DNA of 64,000 nt from an uncultured Verrucomicrobiae bacterium (GTDB lineage: Bacteria; Verrucomicrobiota; Verrucomicrobiia; Limisphaerales; J093), in assembly GCA_937946835.1 (NCBI GenBank), contig CALFAV010000003.1, forward strand, positions 45,718-109,717, read 5' to 3'. Below the pieces are notes generated by a model. The model was not told where the DNA came from. It saw nothing but the letters and a program-made list of their open reading frames with translations, and ran no database searches. Within the stretch, counting starts at the first letter, position 1. Each line of letters opens with the position of its first letter. A program made the translations under genes and the position numbers. Below, in pieces: positions 57,916 through 64,000 of the stretch.

Positions 57916-58003
57916 GTTTGTCGGACCGGGGTGACCGCCCGCACGGTTGACCGTGCCCGGGGCAGCCCGGAGCAGGTTTGGCGTGTTCCATCAAGTTGGA
58001 CAC

Positions 58004-58468
58004 ATGAATGACGCAGACGCCTTGAAATACGCCCTCCCGCCCGAAACGGCAGAGGACGCGGGCTGGGTTTTGCACGAAGGTGCGACCCCCTTGAGCTATC
58101 GCGAACTGCGGGTTTGGAAACTCGCCCGGGAGTTGAGCATCGAAATCCATCGCCTGACTTTGGAGAAACTGCCCCGGTTTGAACATTACGAGGTCGGCAG
58201 TCAAATCCGGCGGGCCGCCAAGTCCATTCGGGCCAACATTGTCGAAGGCTTCGGGCGCCGCCGCTACAAACTGGAATTTCTCAAGCACCTCACCTACGCC
58301 GAAGCCTCCTGTGACGAAACCCTGGACCATTTGGACACCTTGTTTGAAACCGGCTCGTTGGCCGACCGGGCCGTTGACGACGCGCTGCGGACCCGCCTGA
58401 CCGAACCGGGGCGAGCCTTGAACCGTTTCGTGCAAGCCGTGGAAAGAGAACATGCAAGCTCCCGCTAA
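58004..58468 (+). CDS. Four-helix-bundle protein (23S rRNA intervening-sequence protein family)
   Basis: LRVWKLARELSIEIHRLTLEKLPRFEHYEVGSQIRRAAKSIRANIVEGFGRRRYKLEFLKHLTYAEASCDETLDHLD. Confidence 0.93.
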   Translation: MNDADALKYALPPETAEDAGWVLHEGATPLSYRELRVWKLARELSIEIHRLTLEKLPRFEHYEVGSQIRRAAKSIRANIVEGFGRRRYKLEFLKHLTYAEASCDETLDHLDTLFETGSLADRAVDDALRTRLTEPGRALNRFVQAVEREHASSR

Positions 58469-60016: not shown

Positions 60017-60676
60017 ATGATGAACGCACGCGATGCCATCCTGGGCCGCATCCGCGAGGCCCTGCGGGTGCCGGCGCCCCGGTCGGAACCGGCCGCCGCG
60101 CCGGCGGATTTCACCGCCTTGTTGCCGCGCGTGGGCGCGACCTTCGCCGAGCAGGTGGCCGCCTTTGCCACCGCATCCCGGGAGTTGCGCACCGAGTTTC
60201 ATTGGGTGGAGGACGAGGTCGCCGCGCGGGCTGAATTGGAACGCCTGCGCGAGACCGCCGGCTGGCGGCGCGTGGCGGCGCATCGCGGCGCGCAGGTGGC
60301 ACCCCTGGTCGAGGCGCTCGGCCTGCCGGTGCTCTGGACCGACGGCGGCTACGATCGGCGGGAGCTGGAGCGCTGTGATGCGGGGCTGACCCAGTGCGAC
60401 GCGCTGGTGGCGCAGACCGGCAGCGTGGTCGTCACCAGCGCCAGCGCGGGCGGGCGGGTGTTGTCCGTGCTGCCGCCGCACCACGTGGTGCTGGCGCGGC
60501 GCGAGCAACTGGTGCCGGACCTGCCCGCCGCCTTCCACCTGCTCCGGGAAAAGTACGGCGCAAATTACCCGAGCATGATCTCGTTCATCACCGGCCCCAG
60601 CCGCACCGGGGACATCGAGCGCATCCTCGTGCTGGGCGCCCACGGGCCCCGGCGATTGACGGTGTTGTGCTGGTGA
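60017..60676 (+). CDS. lutC: Lactate utilization protein C (LutC; LUD domain)
   Basis: NARDAILGRIREALR; ISFITGPSRTGDIERILVLGAHGPRRLTVL. Confidence 0.92.
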   Translation: MMNARDAILGRIREALRVPAPRSEPAAAPADFTALLPRVGATFAEQVAAFATASRELRTEFHWVEDEVAARAELERLRETAGWRRVAAHRGAQVAPLVEALGLPVLWTDGGYDRRELERCDAGLTQCDALVAQTGSVVVTSASAGGRVLSVLPPHHVVLARREQLVPDLPAAFHLLREKYGANYPSMISFITGPSRTGDIERILVLGAHGPRRLTVLCW

Positions 60677-60714
60677 GGCGGCCCTGGGCGCGGGTCGGCC
60701 GCGGGTGGGCGGGT

Positions 60715-60813
60715 GGCGGGTGCCGCGGGGGAGTTGGCGCGGGCTGTGGAGGGCGGTTTTTCCGGGACTTCGGCCTGCGGAAGTTGCGCGACCGGTCGCG
60801 CAGAGAAAACACC
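60715..60813. repeat. 99-nt direct repeat, copy 1 (contains palindrome TGCGCGACCGGTCGCGCA at 60785-60802)
   Basis: Appears identical to 63902-64000 by direct reading. Confidence 0.92.
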
Positions 60814-60882
60814 GTGGCCCGCGCCGCCGCCGTTCCATTTGCGGCTTGGCGTTCCCGCCCCGCGCCGGTACGTTGCCCGCCC

Positions 60883-61512
60883 ATGAAAAGCACCTTGTTG
60901 GGTTTGGTGTCCCTGGCCCTGGCCGGCAGCCTGACGCGGGCCGCGGACGCGGAGGAGGGCTTTGTTCCCCTCATGGACGGCAAGACCTTCAACGGTTGGA
61001 AACCCGCGGCGGAAAATCCGGGCACCTGGAAGATCGAGGACGGCGCCTTCGTGGCGGCCGGGCCGCGCTGCCATTTGTTCTACGTGGGCGACGAGCAACC
61101 GTTCCGGAACTTCCACCTCAAGGTGGAGGTGATGACCACCCCGGGGTCCAACGGCGGCATTTATTTCCACACCAAATACCAGGAGCGGGACTGGCCCCGG
61201 GCCGGCTTCGAGTCCCAGGTCAACGTCTCGCACAGCGACTGGATCAAGACCGGCAGCCTCTACGGCATCGTCAACACCGGGCTGGCCGCTTGTGAGGACA
61301 ACCGGTGGTGGCTCCAGGAAATCATCGTCCAGGGCCGGCAGGTCACGGTGAAGGTGGACGGCAAGATCGTGCTGCAATACACCGAGCCGCTGGGGGCGCT
61401 GCCCAATCCGGATTTCACCCGCAAGCTGGGCGAAGGCACCTTTGCCCTCCAGGCCCACGACCCCAAGAGCGTGGTCCGCTATCGGAACCTCCGCGTCAAG
61501 CGTCTGGACTGA
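60883..61512 (+). CDS. DUF1080 (3-keto-disaccharide hydrolase-like) secreted protein
   Basis: Signal peptide; FVPLMDGKTFNGWKPA...DGAFVAAG...NGGIYFHTKYQERDWPRAGFESQV. Confidence 0.93.
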   Translation: MKSTLLGLVSLALAGSLTRAADAEEGFVPLMDGKTFNGWKPAAENPGTWKIEDGAFVAAGPRCHLFYVGDEQPFRNFHLKVEVMTTPGSNGGIYFHTKYQERDWPRAGFESQVNVSHSDWIKTGSLYGIVNTGLAACEDNRWWLQEIIVQGRQVTVKVDGKIVLQYTEPLGALPNPDFTRKLGEGTFALQAHDPKSVVRYRNLRVKRLD

Positions 61513-61651
61513 GCGGGGCCGGACCCGGTGGGACACGCACCCGGCCGGTTCCGGGCGGGGGTTGACTGGGCAGGGATCCGACCCCGGAAAAAAGCGGCGG
61601 GGAGTTGAGGGTTTCTGGGGGCGGCCCAAGTCCGTCCTGCCTGTCTGACGA

Positions 61652-61813
61652 ATGAAACCGAAGCGGTCCACCGCACCTCCGCACTGGCTCAATGGGACGG
61701 TGCTGGGGATCGGGCTGGCGTCGTTGTTCAGCGACTGGTCGCATGAGATCGCCACGACGGTGATGCCGGCCTTCCTGGCAACACTGGGCGTGGCGGCGGC
61801 GTGGCTGGGGCTG
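61652..61813 (+). pseudogene. Truncated MFS transporter, N-terminal ~54 residues only
   Basis: HWLNGTVLGIGLASLFSDWSHEIATTVMPAFLATLGVAAAWLGL then abrupt change of sequence character. Confidence 0.75.
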
Positions 61814-62102
61814 CCGCTGGTGCGGAAACAGTATCAGACGTTGTTTGCGCCGATAAACGCCAGTGGAACTCGTCGCTTTACAGCCGCCGGTCGCTTTGTT
61901 ACCCCCCGCACATGGCGAAAGCGAAACCCAACGAATCCGCCCGGGACGTTGAGGGAAAGCCCGCTGTTGTAGCGCGGGCCGGAGTGTGGCCGGCATCATT
62001 CCAGCGCTTCGGCCAAGTCCGCACCCTCGGCCAAACGCGCGATCCCGCCATCGTGGGACAGTGAAGTCTGCTTTCGCGGCTTGGCTGGACGGAAAGGCGG
62101 AC

Positions 62103-62810
62103 ATGAATGGCTTGCTGGTTAGGGTCGGCATTGATTCGACGGACGGTCGCTGGAACGCGCCGATGCGACTGGCATCAAACGAGTTTGCCTATGTCACCAT
62201 CACCGAGACCAAGCCGCTGCGTCCGGGTATGAGCCGCCGTTACGACGAGTTCGTTCCGGTGGTGGAACGCTTCGGGGAGCAGTTGCCGCCGGAATTGATC
62301 GGCTTACCCACGCATCTTGATCCTGATTTTGATTGGCTCACCTACGGCGACCAAGGTCAGCGGGGAAAGTGCATCACCTCATTGTTGACTGCTGATGACT
62401 TGCTGGTGTTCTTTGCGGCTTTCCGACCGGTGGACGGTCCGTCGCGCCCGCTCATCTACGCGCTCGTCGGTTTGTTTGTGGTTGCAGAAATTGTCCCGGC
62501 CAAGTCTGTCCCCAACTCGCGCTGGGCGGAGAACGCGCACACGCGCCGCGTGCCTGGCGACGGGGACATTGTCGTGCGCGCAAAACGCGGCGTGTCAGGC
62601 CGATTGCGCCGTTGCATTCCCATCGGCGGACGGCGTGCTGGTGTTTATCGTGTGCGCCACGACCTGCTGGATGCGTGGGGCGGCCTCGACATCAAGAATG
62701 GCTACATTCAACGAAGCGTGAGGCTGCCCGCCTTTCGGAACACCGCGAAATTCTATCGCTGGTTTCTCGCTCAAAAGCCGGAACTGGTAGCGGAAAACAA
62801 TCCTTCATGA
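62103..62810 (+). CDS. Nmad3-like putative nucleotide-modification-associated protein
   Basis: LLVRVGIDSTDGRWNAPM...HLDPDFDWLTYGDQGQRGKCITSLLTADDLLVFFAAFRP...LIYALVGLFVV; family recalled from motif, not searched. Confidence 0.55.
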   Translation: MNGLLVRVGIDSTDGRWNAPMRLASNEFAYVTITETKPLRPGMSRRYDEFVPVVERFGEQLPPELIGLPTHLDPDFDWLTYGDQGQRGKCITSLLTADDLLVFFAAFRPVDGPSRPLIYALVGLFVVAEIVPAKSVPNSRWAENAHTRRVPGDGDIVVRAKRGVSGRLRRCIPIGGRRAGVYRVRHDLLDAWGGLDIKNGYIQRSVRLPAFRNTAKFYRWFLAQKPELVAENNPS

Positions 62811-63460
62811 GGGGTAAACTTTTCATCGTTATGCTGCGTCGGCCGGGCCGGAACGATCCCCGTCCCGACCCGTACTGGGAGTTCGGCAGTTTCGGCATCA
62901 CCGGTTGTCACCGGAAGAACCTGCTTCATCCTGAGCACACTCAGATTCGCGACGGCGACCGCTTGGCCTTTGTGCAAGGCGGGCATCTTGGCCTTCGGCT
63001 GTTGCTGATTACACCGCCAATCAAACGGATTTTTCATCCGGGCGGAAACCCGATGGGCTGCGTGGAGGTGCGCTGGGATCCGGGCCGAAGGCCATTCCGT
63101 TACGTCTGCGCCCCGTCGCTCCAGGGGTCGCCTACAGCGGGCAGTGTGGCTTTGTCCCCTCAATTGGCGCAATGTCTAAATCACATAAAGCGCCCAACTC
63201 TTGACGCGAAGTTTGCCAGTCGTTTCCGCGCCTGCAGCAGCCCCCTCGGTTCCACAATCGCAAAAGAATTGGAAGCCGGGTTTAATGAAGCCGTCAAACG
63301 CGCGAAAAAATCCGATTTCATCGTTCGATACGAACAAGCTCTTCCCTGGTGTGATGCTCCAGGCTCGGCCAGCGAGCGGAAGCGCGATTATCAGCGGAGA
63401 TTGCGGGAGTTGATGAACTCGAACAGTGCTGCGCCGCTGAAGCGAAAGTCCTGCAAATGA
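62807..63460 (+). CDS. Uncharacterised protein translationally coupled to the Nmad-like gene
   Basis: ATGA overlap; KLFIVMLRRPGRNDPRPDPYWEFGSFGITGCHRKNLLHP...IRDGDRLAFVQGG. Confidence 0.65.
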   Translation: MRGKLFIVMLRRPGRNDPRPDPYWEFGSFGITGCHRKNLLHPEHTQIRDGDRLAFVQGGHLGLRLLLITPPIKRIFHPGGNPMGCVEVRWDPGRRPFRYVCAPSLQGSPTAGSVALSPQLAQCLNHIKRPTLDAKFASRFRACSSPLGSTIAKELEAGFNEAVKRAKKSDFIVRYEQALPWCDAPGSASERKRDYQRRLRELMNSNSAAPLKRKSCK

Positions 63461-63601
63461 GCACCGACGTCTGCGACGAAGATCCACTCGTCAAGCACGC
63501 AGCCATCCGGATATGCGCGCAGCTTGATCATGGTCGGGCGGCAGTTATACCTGACCACTGTCGGCTATTCGCAATTCACAGCGCGTAACAGCCGCCGCCA
63601 T

Positions 63602-63901
63602 CCAACCGAACGTCGGTGCGGGTAAAGCGCCCACGCTTTTGCCGGTTGCTCCGGCGTCCTCGGACGACTTGAACAAGCAGCACGAGTTGGAGCAGTTCCT
63701 GACGCTCCAGCCAATCGCGGAGTTCAGGGCATCGCTGTTCGAGATTTGCCGGGGCGAAGTGCATCTGCTCGGTGCCGGGGCTGGCGCGGGCGCGCTGTCC
63801 GCCACGCTGATCGGGCGGTGGTGTCGCGAGCTGCACAGGCCCAGGCGGATTTCTGTCACGGCTTACGAAATGGACGCCGCGCAGATTTACAAGCCGGGCT
63901 C
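63602..63901 (+). pseudogene. Truncated N-terminal part of a DNA (adenine) methyltransferase-like protein
   Basis: LNKQHELEQFLTLQPIAEFRASLFEICRGEVHLLGAGAGAGALSATLIGRWCRELHRPRRISVTAYEMD (SAM motif I and acidic motif II); no ATG; runs into the 99-nt repeat. Confidence 0.5.
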
Positions 63902-64000
63902 GGCGGGTGCCGCGGGGGAGTTGGCGCGGGCTGTGGAGGGCGGTTTTTCCGGGACTTCGGCCTGCGGAAGTTGCGCGACCGGTCGCGCAGAGAAAACACC
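63902..64000. repeat. 99-nt direct repeat, copy 2, reaches the window end
   Basis: Appears identical to 60715-60813; extent beyond the window unknown. Confidence 0.92.

Follow-up and report, generated by a model that had tools for sequence, protein, structure and literature searches.

Gene content at the end of contig C3

The analysed window comprises 64,000 nucleotides from an uncultured Verrucomicrobiae bacterium whose assembly consists of 88 contigs (3.455 Mb), and its position 64000 is the terminus of contig C3 (109,717 bp). The final portion of the window contains two direct copies of a 99-nt sequence, the first lying between lutC and an intact DUF1080 gene and the second closing the contig, and the DUF1080 gene is followed by an island composed, in this order, of (i) a truncated MFS transporter gene, (ii) an intact Nmad3 gene with its partner open reading frame (ORF), (iii) an hsdR stub, and (iv) a methyltransferase stub (Table 1). 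The island displays a G+C content of 60%, compared with 68% for the genome, and only ~2% of same-size blocks are as low. A preliminary description of the region had referred to broken genes and nucleotide-modification-like ORFs, in agreement with the Nmad3 protein scoring above the Pfam gathering threshold (66.8 bits versus a cut-off of 27, E 3e-18) and with the truncation of the MFS, hsdR and methyltransferase pieces.

Table 1. Features at the right end of the window, with window coordinates
Feature	Coordinates	Strand	Remarks
Repeat copy 1	60715..60813	+	Interior 99-mer, lutC-DUF1080 intergenic; probable graph node entered by the contig end; unique apart from the contig end
DUF1080 / 3-keto-disaccharide hydrolase (PF06439), intact	60883..61512	+	E 6e-38
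MFS transporter, first 54 codons	61652..61813	+	Homology to relatives stops at 61813 (J1)
Stretch left of the Nmad3 module	61814..62072	.	No match in relatives
Nmad3-domain protein (PF18754), intact	62103..62810	+	Pairwise dN/dS 0.12-0.15
Conserved partner ORF, 217 aa	62807..63460	+	ATGA-coupled to Nmad3, whose stop overlaps the ORF start; no family match in Pfam, NCBIfam, PHROGs or PADLOC
hsdR 5'-end-like stub (MSTDVCDEDPLVKHAAI...)	63457..63521	+	Homology with what follows this module in G268
Type II-like DNA methyltransferase, N-terminal piece	63585..63887	+	Start codon absent (GTA); dN/dS 0.53, measured against the G007 homologue
14-nt filler (J2)	63888..63901	.	No match to the methyltransferase or to the bases preceding 60715
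Repeat copy 2	63902..64000	+	Last 99 bases of C3; probable MEGAHIT-type k=99 terminal overlap

The MFS frame stops near 61813 after about 54 residues, as originally described, and homology to relatives is lost at the same place, the alignments ending at 61809-61813; past the break, the intact homologues read WLGL-IEGVSDGLSSFAK. The rest of the gene is found nowhere else in the assembly. No rival continuation is visible in the assembly at this point, which makes junction J1 probably real.

The Nmad3 module and the restriction remnants

The Nmad3 gene and its partner occur together in five of the 292 genomes of the order, this one included, with the partner always adjoining Nmad3. The partner ORF displays pairwise dN/dS values of 0.24-0.32 and invariant stretches that include WEFGSFG and GDRLAFVQGG (the protein is seen in the window and at loci L145, L146, L147 and L196). 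Its profile finds no relative among solved structures (best E 0.62), no copy is detected in plasmids or in genome_contigs, and a single-sequence fold model, with a pLDDT of 39, is uninformative. Type I restriction genes lie close to the pair in three of the four other genomes, comprising hsdR in G121 and G087 and hsdM in G268. The locus resembles the Nmad3 accessory genes found close to type I restriction-modification loci, the same two-gene module standing beside hsdM, hsdS or hsdR in these three genomes, but differs from them in that its restriction genes are reduced to stubs.

Short hsdR 5'-end-like stretches (MPHAYTEDQLVEQPAIG...) flank the Nmad3 module on both sides in G268 (L146, G268:C62), a layout that would fit insertion of the module at the beginning of hsdR, and a similar stretch lies to the left of the module in G121 (L145, G121:C107).

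The methyltransferase piece corresponds to the first 101 codons of the gene (PADLOC, E 1.2e-14) and carries the motif LLGAGAGAG where the relative has LLDAGAGAG; its remainder is absent from the rest of the genome, and no relatives are detected in viral contigs. The frame had been reported to run straight into the second repeat copy, and it does enter this copy, but methyltransferase homology ends at 63887 and gives way to 14 nucleotides that match neither side. The closest relative, L049 (G007:C401, 3020-3388), is also a short N-terminal piece, of 122 aa, and in G007 this piece is followed by an 870-aa methyltransferase-like ORF. Apart from the methyltransferase piece in G007, the island is found in none of the 13 other genomes of the family. 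The sequence between the repeat copies looks genuine, and the region between the junctions is best read as a small, decayed, horizontally acquired restriction-modification island of an ordinary kind.

The repeat and the terminal overlaps of the assembly

Sequence comparison confirms that the two copies are 100% identical across all 99 nt, as first noticed, and chance is excluded, since the expectation for exact 99-mer pairs in 8 kb is ~1e-48. The identity does not extend upstream, where T precedes copy 1 (60714), C precedes copy 2 (63901), and the flanking sequences are unrelated. The second copy had been described as reaching the edge of the window; the contig itself stops at this edge, so that nothing follows, and the copy constitutes the terminal 99 bases of C3 (109619-109717). 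The contig end thus re-enters its own interior 3187 bases upstream. No other contig of the bin starts or ends in the copy-1 region, and none carries a near-identical stretch of 60600-64000.

The length of the repeat is one k of the series 21, 29, 39, 59, 79, 99, 119, 141 given as the k list in a study of assembler breakpoints (the COBRA paper, PMC10914622), according to which MEGAHIT contigs bear end sequences of length maxK; the same study cautions that joins through such end sequences may be illegitimate. Exact overlaps with the rest of the retrieved sequence were sought at 154 of the 176 contig termini of the assembly, covering all 88 starts and part of the ends. The commonest overlap at these termini is 141 nt, with 20 end-to-end matches forming 10 reciprocal junctions, followed on the k series by two cases of 119 nt and two of 99 nt, the latter comprising the C3 repeat and the end of C13, which lies inside C60. 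The C13 case (G000:C60:143-241, exact over 99 nt) provides an independent control within the same assembly. Among the 12 sub-maximal overlaps of 60-140 nt, four fall on 79, 99 or 119 (P ~7e-4 if lengths are uniform). Lengths off the k series are also present (123, 118, 115, 113, 98, 84 and 62), for which local extension of contig ends is a likely source.

The C3 repeat shares with the published maxK overlap an exact match at a contig end and a length contained in the k list, but differs from it in that the contig overlaps its own interior and does so at an intermediate k (99) instead of the final one (141). The published rule covers the largest k, and the 119- and 99-nt cases suggest that intermediate values may mark contig ends in the same manner.

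Origin of the 99-nt repeat

The preliminary description had named a mis-join as the first thing to exclude, and this alternative is now the favoured one: we read the 99-nt direct repeat as a trace left by multi-k de Bruijn assembly of the MEGAHIT type and not as a biological repeat, with a probability of roughly 0.88. On this reading the length of the repeat is set by the assembler and records only a k=99 path from 63901 to 60715; 99 nt is therefore silent on the extent, or even the reality, of any biological repeat. At k=99, the path out of the island at 63901 would have led into the 99-mer at 60715, a node also entered from lutC, and the contig would then have ended at this shared node, retaining the k=99 bases. 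At k=119 and then at k=141, the link from lutC to DUF1080 would have been joined through and the 63901 link would not, the outcome being a dead end that carries a 99-nt overlap. Such an order of events inside the assembler suggests that the 63901 path, not joined at larger k as the lutC path was, had the weaker support. The assembler reading is further supported by copy 2 finishing on the very last base of the contig, by the lack of any further contig terminus around copy 1, and by the content and truncations of the island being independently backed by relatives. Four considerations run counter to it, namely (i) a de Bruijn join requires some read or local-assembly sequence in which 63901 is followed by the 99-mer, making a true adjacency in some cells possible, (ii) the 14-nt filler at 63888-63901 resembles an evolved junction more than a chimeric read, (iii) some of the terminal overlaps have lengths outside the k series, and (iv) the published rule applies to the largest k.

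The main competing explanation is a real duplication, in which a further copy of the 60715 region, or of a longer stretch, follows the right end of the island and is cut off by the contig end after k=99 bases. Any true repeat of at least 99 nt would display the same 99-nt overlap, and the filler, together with the mosaic of gene pieces, suggests a real rearrangement; nevertheless, we regard a duplication, which might be real but weakly covered, as unlikely. If a second copy led on to an intact MFS gene, the path would fork at 61813 and the contig would be interrupted, yet it is continuous there, and an overlap of 99 instead of 141 nt points to support weaker than that of the lutC link. The recombination model proposed earlier, with a duplicated lutC/DUF1080/MFS flank, finds no backing in the bin, which contains neither a partner contig nor the MFS remainder. 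Likewise, the second DUF1080 gene and intact MFS gene predicted to follow copy 2 are unsupported, C3 ending at 64000. DUF1080 directly followed by an intact MFS gene was also looked for in relatives and is absent, the two genes lying on different contigs in every relative that has both; this lack of adjacency argues against the duplication as well. We accordingly give only a small chance to a true join at 63901, with the lutC-DUF1080 intergenic region recently duplicated in direct orientation on the flanks of a decaying restriction island that carries the Nmad3 module; if this were so, the island would have come or moved together with a copied piece of chromosomal flank.

The exact return of the contig end to a point 3187 bases upstream would also fit a circular or tandem unit (60715-63901), with the contig as a lollipop re-entering itself. 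This geometry is accounted for by the k=99 length without such a unit, the loop contains a DUF1080 gene of ordinary chromosomal type but lacks any recognised gene for mobility or replication, and no exit branch is seen, all of which makes the circular or tandem form very improbable. A dispersed intergenic repeat or the end of a mobile element, to which the position of the copy between genes might point, is rejected at the sensitivity of the search and retains a negligible probability: wide dispersal of the 99-mer, together with immediate divergence past 64000, had been put forward as an outcome incompatible with a recombination origin, and the whole assembly contains only these two copies, one of them being the contig end. 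In addition, a search for RNA structures or known RNA elements across 60600-64000 gives no Rfam match, and relatives match the genes only, with nothing beyond.

The assembly signature favoured here implies that multi-k short-read assembly can leave, where a contig stops, a perfect direct repeat that mimics a recombination scar, and repeats that touch a contig end and whose length appears in the k list of the assembler should be set aside ahead of any biological reading.

Upstream of the repeat, a gene for a four-helix protein of the 23S rRNA-intervening-sequence type (PF05635, E 3e-25) occupies positions 57947-58468, between the lutA-like and lutB genes and within a local dip in G+C content.
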